Assembly: GCF_026151205.1 (NCBI RefSeq)
Contig: NC_087079.1
Coordinates: 13,169,945-13,233,944 of the forward strand
Direction: 5' to 3'
DNA: 64,000 nucleotides
DNA from: Bolinopsis microptera
Lineage: Eukaryota > Ctenophora > Tentaculata > Lobata > Bolinopsidae
How positions within the stretch are numbered: position 1 is the stretch's first letter; each line of letters starts with the position of its first letter. The position numbers were made by a program, and so were the translations under genes. Of the stretch, positions 1,830-64,000 are shown piece after piece. Below the pieces are notes generated by a model. That model had not been told where the DNA came from. It saw only the letters and a list, made by a program, of their open reading frames with translations, and did not search any database.

Positions 1830-4800
1830 TCAGGCGGACATTGTGTCGTTTTGTGTTGGTACAGCTTGCAGTGTGGGATTAGCTGATGTCAAACCGATGG
1901 CTGATTTCTTCTGCAGATGCCGCTCCATTCTGAAATTATCACAATATGAGACACCTTGATTAAGTCAAAGCCCCCCGAATACATTTCAGAAAGAATTCAT
2001 TCACGATAACTTATTTACATAATATATTTTACATAAATTTATTATCAAACCAGACAACATTTTAATATTCTAGCGCAACTAAAACCGTTAATTTACAAAA
2101 GTCACGAACGTTATAATTCACAAGAATTGTACAAATAAGAAGAGACGTGAGAGTTCTGACCTGTTGTACCACTTCTCTATCTTTGTATTCTGAATAGCAT
2201 CTTCCCAGCATGGCATACCGTAGAAAGCGCTGCACATTCCGTACATCTCTATATCTGCTAGGTTAGGCTGGTCCCCTCCCTGGAACTTCTTCCCTTTCAT
2301 GGCTGAAGAATTTACGTTCAACGGATTGATATTTAATTGGGTAACCTCAATTTTACCACTTACTGAACCTGTTACAAACCTAGAAATTATTAATTAATCA
2401 TTTTGAAAGCCTGTCTATCTGAAAAGTTAGGTTAAATATGTCGTCTTCAGAGTTCGGATATAAGATCGGGAACCGGACAATAGGGCGGTATTTTCATAGA
2501 AGGGTGGACACGAGGGCGGATCACATGACTAACTTTAACATGGATCGGGGGCCAGCTTTTGGCGTGGGATGTACCTAAATTGTAGTATGCGAAAGTAACA
2601 TGACCATAATTTAATATATGTGGTACACCCTGTATATATGAATATAATCCAAACTCGAGAAGCCTATAGGTAGGCCAGAAATTAAGTGCTGCCGGGAGAG
2701 ATTTATATTTCTATTACCTTATATTATATTTCTAGAACATATAATAATAATAGAACCCTATATTAATTCTAGAACCTTATATTTCTAAAACTTGGTCCAG
2801 AATTCGTTTTTTTTTTCTAAATATCAAAATGGAATGAATTGACAAATAAACGAATAAACAGATAAATTTAATCACATCTGAGCCAGTTGTTGAGACCGCT
2901 GTACAGCTCGATTCTAACATCCCTGTCAAGATTGTGGCGTTTCCTCAGACGTTTGCCGATCATGTACATAGCTCCAGCACCCACGTAACGAATGTACGAT
3001 CTGAAAAGGTGGCATTAATTACACTTAGAGGTGACGCTATGACTAGGCTATCCACTCCGATAATCGTAACCGATAATTATCTCCGATAATTCGTTAAAAA
3101 AAGTTATCTGTTTATCTAGATAAAATGTATTTTTATCGGTATACAAATTCACTAGAAATTACCGAAAATACTGCCACAATACAGTGAAATTTTAAAGAAA
3201 TATTAGTAGTTTTGCCTCTCTCTGTTCCCAAGTTATCCAAGAAACAGTCCCAAACGTCTTCTAGTATGATAGAAGAGGTAGTTTACCTGGATGTGAGCTT
3301 AAGAGATTTATTTACGTTTGTATACCTGTAGAACTGTATGAACTGCAGAAATCCAGAGAAGGTTATTGACATTGTTCTCTTGAGGGTGCTGGCGTTTTAC
3401 CTTACAACCATTCTGGAGACGGGCACAAGCATGTTACTGTTAACAGAAGTCAAAAATATCGGCAGGGCACTCAATTGAATTCCGGACGTGTTCTGGGGGT
3501 GAAACATTGTCTTCAAGAGAAGGAATCTGTAGCTCCAAGTTATCAACAGGATAAGGAATCGGTTCACTGAATCACTTTAAATGCTTTACTGTTTTGAAGA
3601 GAACTGGTAGTACACTACTGTTCTCAGGAGAAGGAAACCGTTGGTCTACTGTTTTAAGGAAAATTGGTGCGTTACTGTTCTCAGGAGAAGGAAACCCTTT
3701 GTCTACTGTTTTGAAGAGAACTGGTACACTACTGTTCTTAGGAGAAGAAAACCGTTGGTCTACTGTTTTGAAGAGAACTGGTGCACTACTGTTCTTAGGA
3801 GAAGGAAACTAGCGCTATACTGTTTTCTGGAGAATGTTCACAACTGTTCTCAAGAAAACTGGTGCTCTAGTATTTTAAAGAGAATTGGTGCACAACTGTT
3901 CTCTGGAGAAGAAAACTGATGCTCTAGTATTTTAAAGAGAATTGGTGCACAACTGTTCGCGGAGAAGAAAACTGATGCTCTAGTTTTTTCAAAAGAAAGG
4001 AAGTGGTACTTTACCAAGATAACTGGTAAAACAGTCATAAAGCTCGACAATTAGTTTTTGTGAAATTTGGAAAACATTTTGGCTTTGGCCTTCAGCAGAA
4101 AAAATTATCGGTTTCATCGGTTTTATCTAGATAAAACCTAAATCTTTATCTGTTTATCTAGATACAACATTTCATACCGATAATGGATAGCCTCACTATG
4201 ACCACCTCATAAACAGAGGCATTTAAACTATTAACCATCGTATTTAACCAGGATGAAACCATGCATATTAGGTCCTGGTTTTACGAAGTTTAACTTTGCG
4301 ATGACGCAAAATACGATTATATTTTACTCTACAAGCAAGTTAAATCGCTGAACAAAACAGTTGGAACAGTTAAAATTCCTATTCTGAGAAATGAACGGTA
4401 CCGAGCGATAGATCACGTGCAAACGAGAACACGTACCCAGAGTACGCGGCACTCTGAGTGCTCTGCAGCCTTCAGATCACGATCTTAAGTTTACAAACTT
4501 TTCCATGGACAATGGACATTTTAAACCCCATTGATCCTAAGCTATACCCAAAGTGTAGTTTAACTAACATACTTTTCAAAGTCAGACAAGTTGCCGTTAG
4601 TTAAAGATAAGCTACAAGTTAACATACTTTTCAAAGTCAGACAAGTTGCCGTTAGTAAAAGGTAAGCTACAAGTTAACATACTTTTCAAAGTCAGAGAAG
4701 TTGCCGTTAGTAAAAGGTAAGCTACAAGTTAACATACTTTTCAAAGTCAGACAAGTTGCCGTTAGTAAAAGGTAAGCTACAAGTTAACATACTTTTCAAA

Positions 4801-7800
4801 GTCAGAGAAGTTGCCGTTAGTAAAGGGTAAGCTACAAGTTAACATACTTTTCAAAGTCAGAGAAGTTGCCGTTGGTAGTGAAGTAGTCGAATGCAGTGAG
4901 GGCCTCCTTCCAAGTTCTGTACACGTTTGGGGAGATCAAGTGAACAAAATGGGTGTCTATCCACCTCCTCCATTTAGCTTCGTTTAACATCAACTGTAAG
5001 GTTATCATCATTACAATTTGCTGTCTTTTCAAAACAAGAAACATCAACTGTAAGGTTATCATCATTACAATTTGCTGTCTTTTCAAAACAAGAAACATCA
5101 ACTGTAAGGTTATCATCATTACAATTTGCTGTCTTTTCAAAAAGTCAAAACAAGAAACATCAACTGTAAGGTTATCATCATTCCAATTTGCTGTCTTTTC
5201 AAAACAAGAAACATCAACTGTAAGGTTATCATCATTACAATTTGCTGTCTTTTCAAAACAAGAAACATCAACTGTAAGGTTATCATCATTCCAATTTGCT
5301 GTCTTTTCAAAACAAGAAACATCAACTGTAAGGTTATCATCATTCCAATTTGCTGTCTTTTCAAAACAAGAAACATCAACTGTAAGGTTATCATCATTCC
5401 AATTTGCTGTCTTTTCAAAACAATTATGACGTATTGTAATTAAATTTGAGATACCGTGCGCAGTATAATCAAACCTTTATTTCTTACCCTTTAAATAGTT
5501 GAAAACTATCAATGAAAACATGTGAAATGTATAATGTATAATGTATAATGTATAATGTGAAATGTTTTCTTGTACTCACATCATGCGCATCCTCATCGTA
5601 CCCCATCACTCTGTACTTGTTAGGATACGTTATCTCTTCTTTACCTGCGACATTGCAGATAAGTCGCTCAGTTTCAGAGACAAATTGTTACTGAATCTTA
5701 AATAGATATATGATGTATCTACAGAAAAAGCTATTATGGCTGAAATAAAAAACAAAATCTGATGAATTTCATAAATTTCTATCGCAAGGAATGCAGATTG
5801 CAGCGCCAAGATAAAAACTCCACCTTTTTTGTAAGAATGCCACGCAGTGTAAAGGTTACAGTATACACCATAAATCTTATCAGTTACCGTTACCAGTTCC
5901 TCCTTTTCAGTACTCTTAATATGAACTGAGGGAACGGGGTATATATTTATATAATTATATAATTATATAATTACATAATTTTATATCATGTTGGGTTGAT
6001 TTCTTTCCTCAAACTTTTACTTAGAATTTAAAATATACGCGAATAATCAATAATAATATATTCAATATTAATATATTCTCCGGGAGACTACTTAATAACC
6101 TACTTTAGATCTGATGACACGCACAGCTCAATAAAGTGTCTTGGTATTACATTTATTAGAGATGTGGGTGAATAAAACCATTTTAGGTATAAGTCATAAC
6201 TCTAGAACCTTCTAAAATCTTCTAGAACCTTTAGTCCTTTAGTAATATTTCAAGAAAAGTTAGATTTTTATTGACGAGTAAGAGTATATCATTAATATTT
6301 AGAGAACCCACAATTTGTATGTTCCCACTTCCCACCAGTATACCGCACCTTTATTAGTATCCTCAATACCCTGACTGACAGCAGGGTACCACTCAATAAC
6401 CTCGCTGATCGGGGTACCCTGAGTGAAGTGAGTGTGAAGAATACTCGTGATCAGAGTTGATTCCTTCAGCTGGATACCGTCCGCTACTAACAGCGGCACT
6501 TTCTTGTAGTCCGAGATGGCTTTTGTTTCTTTCTTCGTCACTGGGTTCACCTGGGATTTCCAGGACGTTTAACGTTAGCAAGATGTTTAATTTTAGAGTT
6601 ATTAGACGTTTGTTAAATCAAACTTATATATGAGAATATTTCTATGGAATGAGACGATTTGAGTAAGATTAAAACTTTACAGCGATACCCATGAAATTAC
6701 TATACATTGCAGGGGATTATGTTCTTGAGGAGACGTGTTCTGTTTAATATGACTAAACCATATGATAAGGAAAACCTGTTTAAATCAACACCTTTCAACT
6801 CTAATCTGAACATGTTGGAAGATAAAGCCAACAAATAGTTCGTAATTTACAGGCCAGATGGCTGGTTGCGTGAGCTCACAATAGAACAGCTAACCTCCGT
6901 CTTATCGTTTGTGCAACTCTAATTGAATAGCGGATTTGAGATGCAGTTAAAATCGGCGTGCTTTAAATAATGGTATGCTTGTCGACAACGTAATTCAAAG
7001 CATATCCCAATATTGATCAATACGATTTTACTGAAGATAATTAAACTGATTTTTATCTCTGAATCCGAGGCAATAGTTTGATGTGATGTTTGCAAAATTG
7101 CATAATTTTTCATCTGCCGCACATTTAGCCTAATTTGTCTGTTCCACATATTTTTGCATATTTTGGTCATTCCTGCAGAATTCTTGCTAAGCTGCACATT
7201 TTATTATTAGCGTGAAAAATATACTTTAATTCCTAAGATTTCGGACATGTTGGAAGACTGTTTTGAAGCAAAGACTTTGGGTACATTTCGGGAGCTAGAT
7301 CTGGAAATTTCAGAAGGATCGTGTCAATGAAAGGAGTTTTCCTTAATTATTTTCGTAATTTATCAAGGTTTTCTAATATCTTATTTTCATGATTTGATTC
7401 TCACTTTTATGTTAAACATGGATTGTTTTTTTCAATTTTTGAAATTACCAGCACCTTCATCGGCTAATAGCTGCACTGATCATTTCAGACTTATTTTGCT
7501 TACCATTTTAGACGGATGAAGTACCGCATTTAATTTAACAGAAATAACATACCACAAATAACATTCCACAAATAACATTCCACAACATAAGCATTTACCT
7601 CAACAATCTGAAATTCTTCACCACACGAGTGAAGGTAGGCTCTAACTTTGCTGCAGAAGGGACAATTGGAGTACTGATACAGCACGAATCTGGCATCCGG
7701 TCTTTCAAGCGCCTCCTGTTGTTAAACTGTTGTTAAACTCTTTAAAATAACGATTACAGTAAAACCCCGATATACCGTGCCCCGATTTACCTCGGACTCC

Positions 7801-8422
7801 GATATACCATGCCCCGATTTACCGCGGACCCCGATATACCATGCCCCGATTTACCGCGGACCCCGATATACCGTTCCCGGATTTACCGCAAACCCCGATA
7901 TACCATGGCCATTTCCTTTCCCCCAAATAGGGCTAAACATACATAATGTAAACCAAACAAAACCCTGATTTACCACAGACCCCGATTTACCGCGTATGTT
8001 TCCTTTCCCCCAAACTCCGCGGTAAATCAGGGTTTTACTGTACTAATTTCTGTTAATCCTGTTGTCCGCGTGATCAGTATTACTATCTGTAGATGCATAA
8101 TGTTATCCGAGGATATGACCAACTGCTTGCATAAAAACAAAAGTTATTTAAATTTTTAAACTCACAGTCTATAAAAAGATACACCATGAATAGACTATTC
8201 ATCAGATCTCCAACTTACTTTAGCTCGAGCACTTTTAGTGTAATACCACATGCACCAACAACCCACAGTTGCAGCCCCCATGGCTATGATAGGCCTCATG
8301 AAGGGGCCTACAAATGATCTGGGGACGTGTTCCCTCCGACCATGCGGGTTGAAATCCCTGGTAAACTGCCTGGCTGCCCTGGTGAACCGCTGAACAGCGA
8401 ACATATCTGTGCTATTGAACAT
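1830..8422 (-). CDS. PTGES2: Prostaglandin E synthase 2 homologue, 8 exons, complete
   Basis: Exons on the minus strand: 8219-8422, 7599-7715, 6349-6550, 5580-5644, 4848-4993, 2876-3000, 2161-2302, 1830-1929. All borders are GT..AG, phases agree throughout, and the total is 1101 nt for 366 residues; the vertebrate protein is about 377. PTGES2 isomerises PGH2 to PGE2 and binds haem and glutathione; it is Golgi-membrane bound before proteolytic release. Exon 1 has a hydrophobic segment (residues about 41-61) after a basic N-terminus. Exon 2 holds the glutaredoxin-like active site YQYSNCPFCSKVRAYL. Exon 3 has KKVPLLVADG, and exon 5 has the GST-like motif VHLISPNVYRT. Exon 7 has GGDQPNLADIEMYG, and exon 8 supplies the C-terminal tail after WYNR. 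The start is the first ATG of exon 1, with none better upstream. The least certain border is the exon 5 acceptor, because tandem copies of the same site exist. Introns carry several elements, listed separately. Confidence 0.93.
3044..4194. mobile_element. Non-autonomous hAT-like DNA transposon in PTGES2 intron 5
   Basis: The ends are inverted: TAGGCTATCCA at the left, and its complement (TGGATAGCCTC) at the right. Flanking 8 bp sequences GCTATGAC (3036-3043) and ACTATGAC (4195-4202) differ at one base, and an 8 bp target duplication is typical of hAT. Subterminal regions rich in TATCTAGATAAA and CGATAA are also inverted relative to each other. No transposase frame is present. The interior is filled by a 57 bp minisatellite. 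Confidence 0.75.
3589..4010. repeat. Degenerate ~57 bp minisatellite inside the hAT-like element
   Basis: About seven imperfect copies of a unit starting CTGTTTTGAAGAGAACTGG and containing GTTCTCAGGAGAAGGAAA. Starts lie near 3589, 3649, 3706, 3763, 3820, 3863 and 3919. Because 57 is a multiple of three, the array leaves short open frames in several frames. These are not genes. Confidence 0.8.
4566..4870. repeat. 55 bp minisatellite copying the 5' splice site of PTGES2 exon 5
   Basis: Six tandem copies start at 4566, 4621, 4676, 4731, 4786 and 4841. The copy at 4841 overlaps the true end of exon 5. On the minus strand every unit repeats the last ~30 nt of the exon followed by the donor GTATGT, so five decoy donors follow the real one. 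A single C/G variation (GTCAGACAAG or GTCAGAGAAG) distinguishes copies. Reading past the real donor meets a TAG within a few codons. Confidence 0.92.
4987..5420. repeat. 54 bp minisatellite copying the 3' splice site of PTGES2 exon 5
   Basis: Eight copies start at 4987, 5041, 5095, 5157, 5211, 5265, 5319 and 5373. The spacing is 54 bp except one 62 bp step at 5095-5157. On the minus strand each unit contains the acceptor AACCTTACAG followed by TTGATGTT, the same bases that begin exon 5. The first three units upstream of the exon are open in the exon's frame, 18 codons each, coding a hydrophobic repeat containing QLMFLVLKRQQIVMMITL. The 62 bp unit then shifts the frame. Confidence 0.92.
5525..5995. 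repeat. AT-rich microsatellites in PTGES2 intron 3
   Basis: A run of TATAATG/TATAATGTA units lies at about 5529-5562, close to the donor of exon 4. A TATAATTATA-type run lies at about 5940-5985. Nothing else is recognised in the intron. Confidence 0.7.
6551..7598. other. PTGES2 intron 2, no further feature seen
   Basis: AT-rich intron between the exon 2 donor and the exon 3 acceptor. A minus-strand open frame at 6919-7197 has no recognisable domain and no splice support, and is treated as chance. Confidence 0.6.
7757..8040. mobile_element. pogo/Tigger-like MITE in PTGES2 intron 1
   Basis: 284 bp element with inverted ends CAGTAAAACCC and GGGTTTTACTG, flanked by TA on both sides (7755-7756 and 8041-8042). 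This is the Tc1/mariner target preference, and the CAGT-AACCCCGAT-type end is the Tigger form. The interior is a short tandem array of a ~32 bp unit (GATATACC, CCCCGATTTACCGCGGACC). There is no coding capacity. Confidence 0.85.
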
Positions 8423-52235: not shown

Positions 52236-55206
52236 GACAAAACTGTACCATAATATGGATTGGTCGAAAATCGAGTGTTTTAGTGAATAACTTATAATAT
52301 ATTTTCAATTTTATCAAGATCTGACCGATAGATTTTCTTTAAACTTTTGAAATAGTTACATGGTTATATGGCGGATAATGTGTGAGCGTTTTGGAGAAAT
52401 TCTATGTGCCAAACTAGAGATATGACTTCAAACACAAGAAAATATCTCCAAATTGGCGGTTTCTAACGGAAATCAGGCATATATTTCAAGATCTGACTGA
52501 TAGATTTTCTTTAAACTTTCCAGATAATTACATGGCTATATGACGGATAATGTGTACGAGTTTGGGAGAATTTCTATGTGCCAAACTTGAGATATGACTT
52601 CAAACACAAGAAAACTGTACCATAATATGGATTGGTCGAAAATCGAGTGTTTTAGTGAATAACTTAGAATATATTTTCAATTTTCTCAAGATCTGACCAA
52701 TAGATTTTCTTTAAACTTTTGAGATAGTTACATGGTTATATGGCGGATAATGTGTGAGAGTTTTCGAGAAATTCTATGTGCCAAACTTGAGATATGACTT
52801 CAAACACAAGAAAATATCTCCAAATTGGCGGTCTCGGCGGAACACAGGAATATATTTCAAGATCTGACTGATAGATTTTCATAAAACTTTCCAGATAATT
52901 ACATGGCTATATGACGGATAATGTGTACGAGTTTGGGCAAATTTCTATGTGCCAAACTTGAGATATGACTTCAAACACAAGAAAATATCTCCAAATTGGC
53001 GGTCTCGGCGGAACACAGGAATATATTTCAAGATCTGACTGATAGATTTTCTTTAAACTTTCCAGATAATTACATGGCTATATGACGGATAATGTGTACG
53101 AGTTTGGGCAAATTTCTATGTGCCAAACTTGAGATATGACTTCAAACACAAGAAAATATCTCCAAATTGGCGGTTTCTAACGGAACACAGGCATATGTTT
53201 CAAGATCTAACTGATAGATTTTCATAAAACTTTCCAGATAATTACATGGCTATATGACGGATAATGTGTACGAGTTTGGGAGAATTTCTATGTGCCAAAC
53301 TTGAGATATGACTTCAAACACAAGAAAATATCTCCAAATTGGCGGTTTCTAACGGAACACAGGCATATATTTCGAGATCTAACCGATAGATTTTCATTAA
53401 ACTTTCCAGATAGTTACATGGCTATAAGACGGATAATCCGTGCAAGTTTGGGCGAATTTCTATGTGCCAAACTTGATATACGACTTCAAACACGACAAAA
53501 CTGTACCATAATATGGATTGGTCGAAAATCGAGTGTTTTAGTGAATAACTTAGAATATATTTTCTATTTTCTCAAGATATGACCAATAGATTTTCTTTAA
53601 ACTTTTGAGATAGTTACATGGTTATATGGCGGATAATGTGTGAGAGTTTCGGAGAAATTCTATGTGCCAAACTTGAGATATGACTTCAAACACAAGAAAA
53701 TATCTCCAAATTGGCGGTTTCTAACGGAACACAGGCATATATTTCGAGATCTAACTGATAGATTTTCATAACACTTTCCAGATAGTTACATGGCTATAAG
53801 ACGGATAATCCGTGCAAGTTTGGGCGAATTTCTATGTGCCAAACTTGATATATGACTTCAAACACGACAAAACTGTACCATAATATGGATTGGTCGAAAA
53901 TCGAGTGTTTTAGTGAATAACTTAGAATATATTTTCTATTTTCTCAAGATATGACCAATAGATTTTCTTTAAACTTTTGAGATAGTTACATGGTTATATG
54001 GCGGATAATGTGTGAGAGTTTTGGAGAAATTCTATGTGCCAAACTTGAGATATGACTTCAAACACAAGAAAATATCTCCAAATTGGCGGTTTCTAACGGA
54101 ACACAGGCATATATTTCGAGATCTAACTGATAGATTTTCATAACACTTTCCAGATAGTTACATGGCTATAAGACGGATAATCCGTGCAAGTTTGGGCGAA
54201 TTTCTATGTGCCAAACTTGATATATGACTTCAAACACGACAAAACTGTACCATAATATGGATTGGTCGAAAATCGAGTGTTTTAGTGAATAACTTAAAAT
54301 ATATTTTCGATTTTCTCAAGATCTGAACGATAGATTTTCTTTAAACTTTTGAGATAGTTACATGGTTATATGGCAGATAATGTGTGAGAGTTTTGGAGAA
54401 ATTCTATGTGCCAAACTTGAGATATGACTTCAAACACAAGAAAATATCTCCAAATTGGCGGTTTCTAACGGAACACAGGCATATATTTCGAGATCTAACT
54501 GATAGATTTTCATAACACTTTCCAGATAGTTACATGGCTATAAGACGGATAATCCGTGCAAGTTTGGGCGAATTTCTATGTGCCAAACTTGATATATGAC
54601 TTCAAACACGACAAAACTGTACCATAATATGGATTGGTCGAAAATCGAGTGTTTTAGTGAATAACTTAAAATATATTTTCGATTTTCTCAAGATCTGAAC
54701 GATAGATTTTCTTTAAACTTTTGAGATAGTTACATGGTTATATGGCAGATAATGTGTGAGAGTTTTGGAGAAATTCTATGTGCCAAACTTGAGATATGAC
54801 TTCAAACACAAGAAAATATCTCCAAATTGGCGGTTTCTAACGGAACACAGGCATATATTTCGAGATCTAACCGATAGATTTTCATTAAACTTTCCAGATA
54901 GTTACATGGCTATAAGACGGATAATCCGTGCAAGTTTGGGCGAATTTCTATGTGCCAAACTTGATATACGACTTCAAACACGACAAAACTGTACCATAAT
55001 ATGGATTGGTCGAAAATCGAGTGTTTTAGTGAATAACTTAGAATATATTTTCTATTTTCTCAAGATATGACCAATAGATTTTCTTTAAACTTTTGAGATA
55101 GTTACATGGTTATATGGCGGATAATGTGTGAGAGTTTTGGAGAAATTCTATGTGCCAAACTTGAGATATGACTTCAAACACAAGAAAATATCTCCAAATT
55201 GGCGGT
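52236..55206 (+). repeat. AT-rich satellite with ~372 bp higher-order unit
   Basis: Two related monomer types alternate. One starts with ACTGTACCATAATATGG and contains GTCGAAAATCGAGTGTTTTAG. The other starts with AAATATCTCCAAATTGGCGG. Both contain a TTTCTATGTGCCAAACTTGA core and GACTTCAAACAC. The first type recurs at about 52240, 52613, 53498, 53870, 54240, 54613 and 54984, so dimers are ~372 bp. Between 52613 and 53498 extra single monomers (~171 bp) are inserted. Open frames inside are chance. Confidence 0.96.
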
Positions 55207-56382: not shown

Positions 56383-56605
56383 GAGGAACCTGCCAAACCC
56401 CAGGACACCAGGAGGATACCACCGGCAAAGCGGCTAATAGTACCCTCCGGTCTGTGTTGTACCGAAGAAGCTGAGTTAATCGATCATGACTCGGCTTGCC
56501 AGCCAAGAGGCAAAATCTGAGCGGCACCAAGGGTTCAGAGAGTGTCATTTCAGCTTCTCCGGTGCTGGATGCCCTGGGGTTTCACATGCGCCGTAGCAAA
56601 ATAAA
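56336..56605 (-). mobile_element. SINE or LINE 3' end with 43 nt poly-A tail
   Basis: Plus-strand 56336-56378 is an uninterrupted T tract, a poly-A tail on the minus strand. The body upstream (minus) has CCGGAGGGTACTATTAGCCG and GGCTGGCAAGCCGAGTCATG. The short minus frame here is not a gene. The 5' edge and target duplication are not clear. The perfect tail suggests a recent insertion. Confidence 0.6.
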
Positions 56606-57052
56606 TATAAAAACACACGCACACAATTTTTTTTATTCTTTTAGATAATACGTCGAATAAAGTCAATGGATATAGAGTAATAAATTGCACATAAGATGGA
56701 GAGAAAAAGGAGAGTTACTACTGGTAATAAATGTGACTCTATATCAATACTAGTAGTGGAGATAACTCCACTAGCTACAACTTGTGAAATAAAGGGTAAA
56801 GGTAAGGCACGGCTGAATTTTCGAGAAAATAAATAAACAAGATAAGAGTGTATAGTGGATCCAGAACTTTGGGTATAAAATGGTCATCAAGGTATAACGT
56901 CTTTAAGGCACCGTATAATATCCGGTTTTTCACCTAATAAGAAAAGCTTAAGATGTTTAAGATATCGCTCCCAGAATAGGGGTTCCTTGTTCTGGAAACT
57001 CCTTCCAATAAACCAACAGCAAACCGAATTTATAAATTCGGATATTTAACTC
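56606..57052. other. AT-rich flank, no gene seen
   Basis: Nothing recognised between the SINE and the Kolobok element. Confidence 0.5.
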
Positions 57053-57402
57053 TTAAAGGTGCACACCGCGAATTTTGCAACTTTGGCTAAAATAGCAATA
57101 GGGCGTGAAACAGAAACATTGTGCTATGTTTCGCAGCGTGGGTCTAATTACATCACCCTCAAATTAGCGATCAAAGTTTTCGCTTCCTAGAGAGATGCAG
57201 CGTCTTAGGAAATCAAGGAATGTAAACAGTGTGAATTGTGGCTTAAACATTGCTAATTTTCTGAATTGTTTTGTAAACTGCTGGTTTCCGATCTTATCGG
57301 CCAAAACAAAGGCTGTGTTTCTTCGATATTTTAATAGATGGAATTAATTTGTACACAAATTCTACGCGTTTTATGAGCAAAACTACCCTGACTGTCAAAT
57401 CA

Positions 57403-58098
57403 TTACATATTATCCATTGAGTTACTAAATCCAACGTATTTTCCACTAGGATCGGGATATCGTTCCCGAATTTTGGCAACAACACATTGCGGCAAAACCA
57501 CTCGGTTTCCACGTCCAATAGGCTGTCCCCTGTTTACAAAAATTAGAAAGTTCCTGTAACACAGATGCCTACGCTTCCCATTGTCGAAAACTTGCTCAAG
57601 ATATTTCTGTCTTGCTTCATGATCATTGATTATTGATGCAAATAGCATTCTGTTGTACTGCAATCCTTCTTCAGACATGAGTTGAGCTTGAAAAAATGTT
57701 TGTTCCGTAATGCATCCTCCGGCAGACTCCATAAAATCTTGAACTTCCGGCTTGTCGTGACAGCATACTGCTTCTCTTGGCGGGCACGGTGAACACTGCC
57801 CACATGAACACCAGTCAGTTGAGCTGTTTACAATAGCCTCTCTCTGGGATACATCCAATCTCTCGGCATTTTTATCAGAGACACTTATAGGTTGATTTTG
57901 ATCAGCTGCAATTTGACCACTTAAACCAGTTCTACTTCTATTATCCATACTGAATTCAGAAAAGTCTAACTCCCTCATCTCATTATCATTTTCGCTATCT
58001 TCACTTGGAGAACTGTAAGGATGATCCTGAAAATCACAGATGGTAATTTCGTTGGTAGAAGATGGTTGATCTAGTTCACCAGGAATCCCGTTGTACAT
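57403..58098 (-). CDS. Standalone P2X7 intracellular ('ballast') domain protein, transposon-borne
   Basis: 231 residues, single exon, start at the ATG ending at 58098. The first ~80 residues are acidic and probably disordered. Residues 95-130 hold the zinc-binding cluster (WCSCGQCSPC, then CCHD and C129). Residues 180-224 hold the domain signature CYRNFLIFVNRG, NRVVLPQCVVAKIRERYP, SGKYVGF. This is the cytoplasmic domain of P2X7 (Pfam P2RX7_C), which in vertebrates binds zinc and guanine nucleotides. There is no channel domain or membrane span, so it is not a receptor. It follows the transposase on the same strand inside the Kolobok element. It may be an accessory DNA- or protein-binding factor; that role is an inference. 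Confidence 0.9.
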   Translation of the reverse strand: MYNGIPGELDQPSSTNEITICDFQDHPYSSPSEDSENDNEMRELDFSEFSMDNRSRTGLSGQIAADQNQPISVSDKNAERLDVSQREAIVNSSTDWCSCGQCSPCPPREAVCCHDKPEVQDFMESAGGCITEQTFFQAQLMSEEGLQYNRMLFASIINDHEARQKYLEQVFDNGKRRHLCYRNFLIFVNRGQPIGRGNRVVLPQCVVAKIRERYPDPSGKYVGFSNSMDNM

Positions 58099-58320
58099 AT
58101 TTGTGTGAAAATGAGGAGGCTAATAGATTCGTAGGAAATTTAGAAGGTTAATTTATCATGAAAAATAATATAGTAAAGTGAACAAGTGACACAATCGGTT
58201 TTTATAATCAGTATTAAACGCGGTGGACTGAAAACAGTACACTGGCGATGAAATAAAAGTCAATCTACACAAGAGGTCACTCTAACAAATAAAAAACTAT
58301 TCAATTCAAAATCTAGAACG

Positions 58321-58650
58321 GTAACATCGTTCGAGTATTGAAGAATAATTGAATGTGACTCAAAATACTAAAATAACTGGCGATATTATAACTTGTAACT
58401 AGTGATAAGAGATGGCATATTTAAATAACTAATCGTGTTAACAATAACAAACTACTAGTGCTCAGTATTACCGGTTAAAACGAATGTGTCATGATTGCAC
58501 AAATTCTACGCGTTTTATGTCCAAAACTACCCTGACTGTAAAATCATTATATATTATCCATTGAATTACTGAATCCAGCGTATTTTCCACTTGAGGTCAC
58601 TCTAACAAATAAAACAAAACTATTCCAATCAAAATCTAGATCGGTCAAGC
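58321..58650 (-). repeat. Relic of a second P2RX7_C gene end joined to a copy of the shared 5' flank
   Basis: 58498-58591 repeats 57354-57447, the last ~15 codons plus 3' flank of the P2RX7_C gene. It joins directly at 58498 to 58321-58498, a near copy of 60895-61088, the region upstream of the transposase. GAGGTCACTCTAACAAATAA also repeats at 58275 and 58594. The layout looks like a tandem cassette duplication with an internal deletion. As a result both genes of the element start behind the same ~180 bp sequence. Confidence 0.85.
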
Positions 58651-58705
58651 AAGGTTGACTTTTTTGGAATTTTTAGTCCCGTGATATTCTTAGGAATTGT
58701 TCTTT

Positions 58706-60877
58706 TCACGTACTGACTTTCCTTGACCAGGTGGCTATACTGCGGGGCTCTTTTCCCTCTCCAACATAGTCCCACATTCCTTGCAAGATATCTTTTCTGT
58801 AAGAGTAGTCCTTGTTGATGACTCTGCTTTTGCTTACATATTTCTTTTGGCTCTTAGAATAGGACCAAAATTCTTTTCTGTTGCTGGTTAAGTTCTTATT
58901 GATTTCTATAGCAATAACCATAGAGCCCACTACCATTCTGTTTAGGGAATAGGAAGTCCGTTTAGGCAAGAGCTTTAGTCTCACATTGTGATAAACTTCC
59001 AAAGCCCCTGTGTGTAGAAAGTTACAACACAACTGGATGGAACTTATGAAGCGGGTGCTGGTGAAGTACTTGAATAAAGAGGTGAATTCTTCACTTTCTA
59101 TTTTAAACCACTTTAGCCCCTTTAGCGTCCTGTGTTTTACCCTTGAAGAGTGATCGCAGTGCTTCACTTTATGAAAGTAAGGATATAGCTTTTCAGAGGT
59201 CAAAACAATTTGCTTCTTTCTTTTTTCATTCCGTTCTTTCTGCAGTTGTAGTTTTAGAGGCTCGAAGGGATCGGCTGTCCAGGCGTGATGGTTACTAATG
59301 TGCAGTAAAGTCGAATGAACCCTTTCCACTAACTCTTTCGGGTCCCCTGCACATTTCTTACAGCTATACCAGAAATGATTGACGATAGGGGCAACAAACT
59401 CGGACAGCTTTGGTAGTTTTTTAGACATTTCCATGAGCTTTTTTTTCACCAGCCTCGCTTTGTGCCAAATATCATAGTTGTGAGTAATACTGGTAAAGAA
59501 GGTCCTCATCAGCTTTGCAATCCTCGTATTCTCATCGGTCACGAAGTGTCGGACTTTCAGCCCTTGGCTAACAAGGTTGAGTAGGACTTCCTTGCACGCA
59601 AACGTTTCCAGGTCGCCTCTGTACATTCCCTTTTGGGCGACGAAAAAGTCAAGAATAGCACCTGTCTTGATATCTAGAATGCTATAAGTGCAAAACTTCG
59701 CACACCAACCGGGCGAGTCGAAGTGCCCATCTCCTGCGATGTCAACGTGTTCCAACCCACTGCGACTCTCTAGCAAAGCTGTCCTCATAGACGTCCATTG
59801 GTCAACGATTATAGGGTATAGATTGGTCGTGTTGTTTTTATAGAAACTTGAGCATGTTATGTATGGAACAGATAAACAAGTCATGAACGATTCTAAAACA
59901 CTATAACTCATCCCACACAAAAAAGCTGCAGCAGAAACTACAAGGTTGCACTCATACTTTTTCTGTCTCAGGCGTGAGCTTCTCCAGACTCCTTCGTGAG
60001 GCAGAATACCATAACACCTGTAATTGACCACTATGCCAAATCCAGCACAGTTTATCCTCTTGATGACTGACCGGGCTCCGCATTCGGGACAGAATTTAAA
60101 TAGGGATAGTAGTAAGGGCACGCTTATAATGGCCCAACAAGCGTTTTTTGTGAATGATTCTACGCTTTCATCAATAACTGGCTCATCATCGTCCGTGAGG
60201 TCATCCAGTTCAAGATCATCCAGCTCTATAAAGTCACCTTCTTCGGAAAATGAAGAGTTGATATCTTCATTATGTAAACCCGTGTCAAAGTCATCATCAT
60301 CAACTTCATCAGTAGGTTGGCTATCTTCACTGTCAGTTTCTGAGAAGTAAAGCTCGTCGATCTCCCAAAAAGAATCAGGTTCAATGTTAGAACAGGATTC
60401 GTTGGTTGTATCCTGCTCAATATCTATGCCATCAGTTGACCCTGCCGGTTGCATTTCAACTAATCTTTCTTTAGGAGGTGGTCGTTTTGACATTGTTTGG
60501 ACTAGGGGGTTGGCGAAACTACCAGTCCTTCGATCTGTATTTGGTACACTATCGACTTTCAAGCGAATCAATGTGCGAGTTTCAGGATTGGCTCGAGCAT
60601 GATATCGTTCCAAATCACCCTCTTGAAAGTCATCCAGGAAAAAATGATCAGTACAAACTCTTGTACTAAGGCTGGGTTGCCATGATCGTGAATCTCTATT
60701 CATCCTCACAACCCATTTTTGCTTTAAAGCTTGATTTGTGGGTAGTCTGATGTATCTTAGAAATCCTCTTCCACTGTGATCACTTACTTTGTTTCGGCTA
60801 CTACGATTCGAGCAAGCACCCACAGCACAAAATGATCCTCCTGGTTTCCGTTTCTTCGAAGGTGGTTGTTCAGCCAT
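58706..60877 (-). CDS. THAP-domain Kolobok transposase
   Basis: 723 residues, single uninterrupted exon. The N-terminal THAP zinc finger has C17, C22, W55, C75 and H78-F79, the C2CH pattern that binds transposon ends. Residues ~150-240 are a very acidic linker. A CxxC (263-266) precedes the core. The RNase H-like catalytic region starts at GDGHFDSPGWCAKFCTYS (D383 the likely first acidic residue). HFVTDENTRIAKLM follows (D448 the likely second), then NYDIWHKARLVKKKL. This is the pattern of the large THAP transposase family abundant in invertebrates. The final catalytic Glu cannot be placed with confidence. It cuts and pastes the surrounding element in the nucleus. The start is the first ATG, directly downstream of the shared 5' flank. 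Confidence 0.92.
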   Translation of the reverse strand: MAEQPPSKKRKPGGSFCAVGACSNRSSRNKVSDHSGRGFLRYIRLPTNQALKQKWVVRMNRDSRSWQPSLSTRVCTDHFFLDDFQEGDLERYHARANPETRTLIRLKVDSVPNTDRRTGSFANPLVQTMSKRPPPKERLVEMQPAGSTDGIDIEQDTTNESCSNIEPDSFWEIDELYFSETDSEDSQPTDEVDDDDFDTGLHNEDINSSFSEEGDFIELDDLELDDLTDDDEPVIDESVESFTKNACWAIISVPLLLSLFKFCPECGARSVIKRINCAGFGIVVNYRCYGILPHEGVWRSSRLRQKKYECNLVVSAAAFLCGMSYSVLESFMTCLSVPYITCSSFYKNNTTNLYPIIVDQWTSMRTALLESRSGLEHVDIAGDGHFDSPGWCAKFCTYSILDIKTGAILDFFVAQKGMYRGDLETFACKEVLLNLVSQGLKVRHFVTDENTRIAKLMRTFFTSITHNYDIWHKARLVKKKLMEMSKKLPKLSEFVAPIVNHFWYSCKKCAGDPKELVERVHSTLLHISNHHAWTADPFEPLKLQLQKERNEKRKKQIVLTSEKLYPYFHKVKHCDHSSRVKHRTLKGLKWFKIESEEFTSLFKYFTSTRFISSIQLCCNFLHTGALEVYHNVRLKLLPKRTSYSLNRMVVGSMVIAIEINKNLTSNRKEFWSYSKSQKKYVSKSRVINKDYSYRKDILQGMWDYVGEGKEPRSIATWSRKVST

Positions 60878-61324
60878 TCAGCTACTTTATTTCTGTAACA
60901 TCGTTCGAGTATTGAAGAATGTATTGAAGAATGTATTGAAGAATGTGACTAAGAATACTAAAATAACTCGTGGTATTATAACTTGTAACTAGTGATAAGA
61001 GATGGCAAAGTTAAATAACTAATCGTGTTAACAATAACAAACTACTAGTGCTCAGTATTACCGGTTAAAACGAATGTGTCATGATTGCGTGTAAGAGACA
61101 AAACGTGGCATTGCAAATGTAAACAACGTAATAGTGAGAGGAGAGTAGAGAGAGTGATAGTACGCTGCATCTCTCGAGCGACCCTAATTTTGGTGGCCAA
61201 TTAGAGGGCGACACCCTTACTTGCGTGTCCCTAAATTTTGCGGAAGTTAATATATTCGCTTGACTATCAGATTGAGTTAAAAAACAAAAATGTTAAAATT
61301 TTTTCCCTATCTCGGTGTGCACCT

Positions 61325-61441
61325 TTAATGGTCATAGCTACTTTTAATTTCAGGAATCATACAGATTTTAAAGTACGCTGGTACGATTGTTATCTTATTA
61401 AATTGCTGTTCAATATCTATTTTAGTAAACATTAACTGGGG
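61325..61441. other. Short spacer between Kolobok and palindrome
   Basis: Begins with the right TTAA target copy. No other feature. Confidence 0.6.
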
Positions 61442-61820
61442 TATCACTTCGAGATGGCCAGGCCTACTCTCATGCTGTCTATATGTGATGATTAACTCTG
61501 AAAAACTAGGGACAACTGGGGAATGATCCCAGAACCTCGAGATTTCGCGTCTCTTGCTCTACCAATTGAGCTACTGACCCTGATTCTCAGAGCGAAATCA
61601 CCACTCATATACAGCACAATTTCATGCTTTGAAAGCATGAAATTGTGCTGTATATGAGTGGTGATTTCGCTCTGAGAATCAGGGTCAGTAGCTCAATTGG
61701 TAGAGCAAGAGACGCGAAATCTCGAGGTTCTGGGATCATTCCCCAGTTGTCCCTAGTTTTTCAGAGTTAATCATCACATATAGACAGCATGAGAGTAGGC
61801 CTGGCCATCTCGAAGTGATA
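61442..61820. repeat. 379 bp perfect palindrome with tRNA-like arms
   Basis: Arms of 189 nt are exact complements around the centre base at 61631, with no spacer. Each arm contains a tRNA-like segment (61682-61753 on plus, 61509-61580 on minus). The A box is good (TAGCTCAATTGG), but the B box is poor and only three acceptor pairs form, so it is a tRNA-derived SINE and not a working tRNA. A perfect spacerless palindrome may be a foldback element or a fold-back sequencing or assembly artefact. Confidence 0.95.
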
Positions 61821-62985: not shown

Positions 62986-64000
62986 ATAAAAATTCTCCCA
63001 AACTCGTACACATTATCCGTCATATAGCTATGTAATTATCTGGAAAGTTTAAAGAAAATCTATCAGTCAGATCTTGAAATATATTCCTGTGTTCCGCCGA
63101 GACCGCCAATTTGGAGATATTTTCTTGTGTTTGAAGTTATATCTCAAGTTTGGCACATAGAATTTCTCCAAAACTCTCACACATTATCCGCCATATAACC
63201 ATGTAACTATCTCAAAAGTTCAAAGAAAATCTATTGGTCAGATCTTGAGAAAATAGAAAATATATTCTAAGTTATTCACTAAAACACTCGATTTTCGACC
63301 AATCCATATTATGGTACAGTTTTGTCGTGTTTGAAGTCATATCTCAAGTTTGGCACATAGAAATTCTCCCAAACTCGTACACATTATCCGTCATATAGCC
63401 ATGTAATTATCTGGAAAGTTTTATGAAAATCTATCAGTTAGATCTCGAAATATATATGCCTGTGTTCCGTTAGAAACCGCCAATTTGGAGATATTTTCTT
63501 GTGTTTGAAGTCATATCTCAAGTTTGGCACATAGAAATTTGCCCAAACTCGTACACATTATCCGTCATATAGCCATGTAATTATCTGGAAAGTTTAAAGA
63601 AAATCTATCAGTCAGATCTTGAAATATATTCCTGTGTTCCGCCTAAAGCGCCAATTTGGAGATATTTTCTTGTGTTTGAAGTCATATATCTCAAGTTTGG
63701 CACATAGAATTTCTCCAAAACTCTTACACATTATCCGCCATATAACCATGTAACTATCTCAAAAGTTTAAAGAAAATCTATTGGTCAGATCTTGAGAAAA
63801 TCGAAAATATATTCTAAGTTATTCACTAAAACACTCGATTTTCGACCAATCCATATTTTGGTACAGTTTTGTCGTGTTTGAAGTCATATCTTAAGTTTGG
63901 CACATAGAAATTTGCCCAAACTCGCACGGATTATCTGTCTTATAGCCATGTAACTATCTGGAAAGTTTAATGCAAATCTATCAGTTAGATCTCGAAATAT
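62986..64000 (-). repeat. Satellite array, inverted orientation, running off the window
   Basis: Same monomers as 52.2-55.2 kb, read on the minus strand (CAAGTTTGGCACATAGAAATT, CCAATCCATATTATGG). Continues to the window edge. Confidence 0.96.

Follow-up and report, generated by a model that had tools for sequence, protein, structure and literature searches.

The 64,000-nucleotide stretch of contig NC_087079.1 analysed here (hereafter the window) comes from the lobate ctenophore Bolinopsis microptera, the published assembly of which comprises 13 chromosome-scale scaffolds (PMC10232365). At positions 57053 to 61328, TTAA included, it carries a TTAA-flanked Kolobok transposon that is almost certainly a recent copy of an autonomous two-gene element of the Kol0 type, coding for a transposase and for KolX, a protein with the 'ballast' fold otherwise known as the tail of the P2X7 receptor. 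P2X7 is a drug target, the function of its tail is not settled, and this tail stems from a transposon protein family. Taking together the identity of the element, the history that we reconstruct for it and the function that we propose, we give the whole explanation a probability of about two in three.

KolX as the partner of a Kolobok transposase

The terminal inverted repeats of the element (TIRs) are 19 nt long with the TTAA, are 95% complementary in the inverted-repeat comparison of the window, and display the two marks of Koloboks, 5'-RR..YY-3' ends and a TTAA target duplication. When the RR..YY rule was waived, a scan of the window for TTAA inverted repeats showed five further pairs enclosing the element; with the rule, the pair 57053/61328 was the sole one left. 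A preliminary description of this DNA, made from the sequence alone, had reported a TTAA-flanked Kolobok with a THAP transposase and a 231-residue P2X7 ballast protein on the same strand, and ends and profile matches bear it out. It also proposed a search of the genome for other copies. This yielded a copy at C7:15157492-15161755 which is 99% identical and has TTAA at both ends, so that the element is not the product of chance.

The stop-to-stop frame of KolX (57403-58119, minus strand) matches P2RX7_C with 64.1 bits (cut-off 23.5) and an E-value of 2.2e-17. Read from the first ATG, its 231 residues comprise the nine cysteines previously listed (97, 99, 102, 105, 112, 113, 129, 180 and 205) and an additional one, C21; the N-terminus is acidic, with a net charge of -13 across 90 residues. 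P2RX7_C is the only match in this frame: no P2X channel is joined to it, as would be expected of a P2X7 receptor. The transposase frame matches THAP (39.5 bits) and PF20700, 'Mutator-like transposase' (40.2 bits). An alignment of six families retains GD.xxDSPG, V(T/N)D, (D/E).WH and FLHTG(A/S)LE, the catalytic residues being assigned by eye; as in other DDD/E transposases of this kind, a C/DxxH motif stands between the second D and the E, with EIWH instead of DIWH in family D, where the H and the spacing are retained. The element had been called apparently intact. This holds for the KolX frame, which is whole, and not for the transposase, the C-terminus of which is frame-shifted relative to L018 (723 versus 749 amino acids); L029 ends like L018.

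A profile search of the genome gave 49 P2RX7_C matches at E ≤0.001, all above the curated cut-off, and 20 of these loci were taken with about 10 kb each, a few others in part. Relatives of the transposase gave at least 61 matches (62 of 94 candidates scored), the match lists being lower bounds. A transposase match lies within 5 kb of 19 of the 49 KolX matches, where random placement expects 0.09. Furthermore, in six families the distances between transposases (374 columns) and those between KolX proteins (174 columns) correlate at 0.956, a value reached by 3 of 720 permutations. Such behaviour is that of a standing partner gene. The preliminary description had staked its case on the pair recurring in other TTAA elements, as it does; its word 'cargo' is misleading, since across the six families KolX tracks the transposase and is not the passenger of one copy.

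Grouped by DNA identity, the loci make family A (the window copy, L018, the KolX-less L029 and L030, and the older, broken L031), family B (L020-L022, three copies 99.4-99.6% identical over 5.17 kb, two on C1 and one on C9), C (L016, L017), D (L012-L015, L019), E (L023, L024, L027) and F (L025, L026), with G (L009), H (L011), J (L028) and L010 as single loci. TTAA inverted repeats (16 nt, at most two mismatches) enclose KolX in 9 of 20 loci, one of which (L015, an AT-rich repeat) is doubtful, as against none of 49 control windows; with the RR..YY rule and 12 nt, the count is 9 of 21 loci versus a mean of 1.5 (0 to 4) when right arms are shuffled. TTAA-AG is found at both ends in at least one copy each of families A, B, C, G and H, both ends being lost in L029, while TTAA borders both sides in a single family D copy of five, L019. 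In a ballast tree of 28 rows and 128 columns, families B, E, F, G, J and M form one clade (99/99), with the two genes head-to-head in B and G (whole frames) and matched on opposite strands in E and J. Families C, D and H, where KolX follows the transposase in the same orientation, cluster at 94/90. The window's family, whose two genes likewise share a strand, is separate from these groups and sits with database proteins. These groups point to several deep KolX lineages within a single ctenophore genome.

Two of these loci have a setting of their own. The family H element (L011, 1419-5713) lies between two long frames of the same strand (957-1433 and 5680-8031), as if inserted into a gene. At L035 (1482-2399, on C3), a 305-residue frame joins the ballast domain to an N-terminal stretch devoid of Pfam match, which may be a fusion, a gene or a chance frame.

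The two-unit build of family A and its surroundings

Comparison of the window element with itself reveals three pairs of direct repeats, all internal: a 94-bp end block (element positions 302-395 and 1446-1539), an upstream block of about 180-190 bp (1269-1446 and 3843-4036) and a block of about 50 bp (1221-1270 and 1541-1593); Table 1 places them in the window. On the coding strand, the end block that follows the transposase reads SGKYAGFSNSMDNI-stop and matches the ending of KolX, SGKYVGFSNSMDNM-stop, while the 50-bp block before KolX reads RSRF-stop, as does the transposase of L018 at its end. Each unit thus carries a remnant of the other unit's gene. Because these stubs are reciprocal and the upstream region is present once for each gene, it appears that an ancestral transposase-KolX unit was doubled and that each copy then lost one gene. 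Tandem duplication with reciprocal gene loss is the simplest history and, judging from the arrangement of the repeats, a probable one. The ancestor would have had the order upstream region, transposase, KolX, end, an order still present in families C, D and H; its inside would have been duplicated in tandem, after which one unit would have lost the body of KolX and the other the transposase, leaving a separate upstream region for each gene. The reciprocal stubs would illustrate how a two-gene element splits into two separately started units.

Table 1. Position in the window of the parts of the element
Feature	Positions	Strand	Remarks
Left TTAA and TIR	57053..57071	+	AGGTGCACACCGCGA; inverted-repeat scan
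'Tail' K: final KolX codons and post-stop sequence	57354..57447	-	repeated at 58498-58591
KolX gene, 231 amino acids and stop	57403..58098	-	ballast protein; acidic, low-confidence N-terminus in predicted structure
P2RX7_C (ballast) match	57427..57900	-	residues 74-231 of the stop-to-stop frame
Transposase-end stub inside the KolX unit (RSRF-stop and following bases)	58273..58322	-	homologous to 58593-58645
KolX upstream region, putatively promoter-like	58321..58498	-	copy of transposase upstream region 60895-61088
'Tail' T after the transposase, holding the KolX C-terminus stub	58498..58591	-	encodes SGKYAGFSNSMDNI-stop
Region behind or at the ancestral transposase end	58593..58645	-	DRSRF-stop in copy L018
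THAP and DDE transposase, 723 amino acids	58706..60877	-	profile search; C-terminus frame-shifted against copies L018 and L029
THAP domain	60542..60829	-	residues 17-112 of the transposase frame
Transposase upstream region, putatively promoter-like	60895..61088	-	self-comparison
Right TIR and TTAA	61310..61328	-	inverted-repeat scan

The KolX-less copies help to order these events. The duplicated blocks of the window element differ at about 20 of 322 sites, that is, some 6% between the two units, and the left ends of L029 and L030 differ from the window copy by 3.3% and 2.0%, respectively. With differences of about 1-3% from the window copy, L029 and L030 look younger than the duplication and would have lost KolX later; their left ends resemble the window copy more closely than one unit resembles the other, which makes it less likely that they are ancestral KolX-free elements. 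The same figures bear on the main alternative origin of this build, the fusion of two complementary deletion derivatives, one retaining the transposase and the other KolX. Derivatives of both kinds exist, with KolX only (L016 in family C; L013-L015 and L019 in family D) or transposase only (L029, L030), and their fusion would leave identical-looking stubs. Yet a separate transposase-only parent predicts that the left ends of L029 and L030 should be some 6% away from the window copy, in excess of what is seen, and no KolX-only single-unit copy of family A appears among the matches listed, so that we hold fusion to be rather unlikely.

As for the surroundings of the element, the five extra pairs left by the scan without the RR..YY rule have their arms near 54885/55085 (54885-55105) and in 63030-63970 (arms 63052-63970), and belong to another dispersed repeat with TTAAACTTTnnnAGATAnTTA-like ends, in inverted orientation on either side. 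The left neighbour (56600-57036) is itself repetitive, a dispersed sequence of which about 40 near-identical copies exist, and the element starts 16 bases further. At 61442-61820 lies a perfect palindrome with arms of 189 bp, each comprising a tRNA-Ser(CGA) gene; this unit has at least 288 matches in the genome (40 of 283 candidates scored), often head-to-head and in tandem arrays with a spacing of about 345 bp.

Proposed function of KolX and probable capture of its domain by host genes

What would such a protein do for the element? The preliminary description had offered target choice, end binding or nucleotide sensing as candidate roles. We lean, with some reserve, towards an accessory transposition factor: KolX, encoded by the element, would act together with the transposase, the THAP domain of which would bind the element ends while its DDE domain would cut and join at TTAA. 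KolX, a helical domain built around zinc and extended by an acidic tail, would help to assemble the paired-end complex, and it may work there as a guanine-nucleotide-dependent part. This last proposal is a tentative one, and rather doubtful. It comes from comparison of the residues of rat P2X7 that coordinate guanosine diphosphate (GDP), R546, H547, R574, R578 and K583, with 25 KolX-type rows, where the equivalents of R546 and R578 are arginines in all 25; two invariant arginines thus match two of the five rat residues.

KolX could instead regulate or protect the element (as a repressor, for example, or a decoy for host silencing) and be kept for the sake of persistence. It is dispensable in cis; family D has six KolX-bearing copies besides L012, several of them deprived of long parts of the transposase; and the acidic N-terminus would suit protein binding. 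It remains that KolX distances follow transposase distances closely, as for a direct partner, and that KolX is not generally retained. L013-L016 and L019, which have KolX but little of the transposase, had prompted the idea of a retention bias among deletion derivatives. It was rejected: the whole KolX frame is present in one of five family C derivatives, and the short family B derivatives have little left of either gene, so that the bias fits family D alone. A regulatory or protective role seems therefore unlikely, and we keep the accessory factor as the better reading.

Several observations weigh against our overall explanation. The assignment of the window element to Kol0 is made from KolX and not from a transposase tree. 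No transposase match lies within 5 kb of 30 of the 49 KolX matches, in lists that are lower bounds. TTAA inverted repeats were not found by the scans in families E, F, J and M, and the ends of family E are TGACGTAAT, without TTAA on both sides. A search for internal repeats in families C, D, G and H gave none, hence no counterpart of the family A duplication; those present in B and E are unrelated to its blocks. The KolX-less copies L029 and L030, together with many short derivatives, imply that KolX is not needed in cis. Finally, H547 is retained in 14 of the 25 KolX-type rows, and R574 and K583 in none.

The ballast domain does not seem confined to transposons in this genome. Locus L010 (3381-5165, at C7:10030480-10032264) holds an uninterrupted frame of 594 residues with P2RX7_C at residues 450-590, and this frame contains exactly the NCBI protein 'mucin-2-like isoform X1 [Bolinopsis microptera]' (P0037), with its ballast domain at the C-terminus. 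The scans gave no transposase match within 5 kb and no TTAA repeats there. Among the matches listed, a protein search with P0037, capped at 7993 candidates, returned P0037 itself, P0038 (full length, 84% identical) and P0039, the label of which, 'sb/3464990', is presumably that of a Pleurobrachia gene. P0037 and P0039 share 59% identity in the ballast domain (72/123) and 26% in the remainder (72/282). Preferential retention of the ballast domain was considered and dropped, as P0037 and P0038 show no difference between the N-terminal part (352/382) and the ballast (119/128), and only the distant P0039 has the domain better kept than the rest. Some tyrosine motifs of P0037 (DEAIYQKLD, DETIYEKID, for instance) resemble, by eye, signalling motifs.

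The L010 gene is probably a capture of the ballast domain separate from P2X7. We favour the direction from transposon to host on the basis of the depth of the association between KolX and the transposase, not of the tree, where the host pair is placed beside clade II at 81/61 only. One residue, Arg199, seems to tell the two settings apart. It is R in 24 of 25 KolX-type rows (including L035, with its odd N-terminus, and P0032, the setting of which is not established) and K in L026; in a gapped part of the alignment, the three host sequences have H, H and E at this position and rat P2X7 has F, and these four captured sequences represent two events at most. Two aphid proteins, P0017 (Rhopalosiphum maidis) and P0031 (Melanaphis sacchari), have KolX-type domains that keep Arg199 or its motif. 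The chances are about even that the ballast domain flowed repeatedly from Koloboks into host genes, the ctenophore P0037, long, of low complexity and cytoplasmic-looking, having received it apart from vertebrate P2X7, and both having retained the zinc cysteines together with the two arginines of the nucleotide site while losing Arg199. If this is true, Arg199 would mark a function needed for transposition alone, and the residues common to transposon and captured forms, set against the transposon-only ones, make concrete mutants to construct. The converse idea, that the ballast gene is a host gene picked up by the window copy alone, may appeal to the existence of P2X7 and P0037 and is nevertheless hardly tenable, as the second, 99% identical copy also has the gene, six families have the pair, with matching distances, and it has been published for Kol0 elements of other phyla (PMC9587614).

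Comparison with known systems

The transposon origin of the P2X7 tail is already in print. Kojima and Bao (2022; PMC9587614) state that KolX of Kol0 Koloboks adopts the ballast fold, that P2X7 came about when a P2X4-like gene was fused to KolX, and that Nanor of the zebrafish probably goes back to the domestication of a KolX. The transfer from element to P2X7 that the preliminary description suggested is thus plausible and was published in 2022, and nothing here ties the window element itself to vertebrate P2X7. Rat P2X7 groups with P0032 (100/98), its deeper placement, on a long branch, being weak (76/87); the single P2X match of the genome, C3:13767908, is near no listed ballast match (two candidates, exon-wise search). 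According to Kojima and Bao, KolX-bearing Kol0 elements are known from vertebrates, annelids, cnidarians and sponges; Rump (2020; PMC7016195) reports that the ballast domain was not seen in Mnemiopsis and that such domains did not expand into large families. KolX in a ctenophore looks new, no earlier account of it appearing in the literature searched, where coverage of subscription journals is thin. So do the duplicated build with reciprocal stubs, the host gene with a C-terminal ballast domain and the contrast at Arg199.

KolobokP belongs, like the window element, to the Kolobok superfamily and has a second protein of its own. It has long terminal direct repeats, of which self-comparison of the window element reveals none, and a His-Me finger nuclease; no second nuclease is recognised by Pfam in our element, its two large frames giving no match to this fold in a search limited to that library and to frames of at least 60 residues. 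P elements and THAP9 share with it a THAP domain at the N-terminus of the transposase and a possible link to guanine nucleotides. In P elements the transposase itself contains a guanosine triphosphate-binding domain, and the duplications made are of 8 bp (PMC7776569); the window element has a TTAA target and a separate protein. The P-element domain offers a loose parallel to the nucleotide dependence proposed for KolX. The P2X7 ballast (PMC7016195) has in common with KolX the zinc cysteines, the equivalents of R546 and R578 and, by predicted structure, the fold, and differs in being fused to a channel, KolX of the window being a free transposon protein. The closest system is Kol0/KolX itself, of the Kolobok-1_XT type (PMC9587614), with the same transposase and ballast protein, TTAA targets and RR..YY ends; compared with it, the window element resides in a ctenophore, and in family A the upstream and end blocks are doubled, each unit holding a stub of the other's gene. 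Ordinary in kind, the element is informative in its host, in its architecture and in the likely second capture of its domain.

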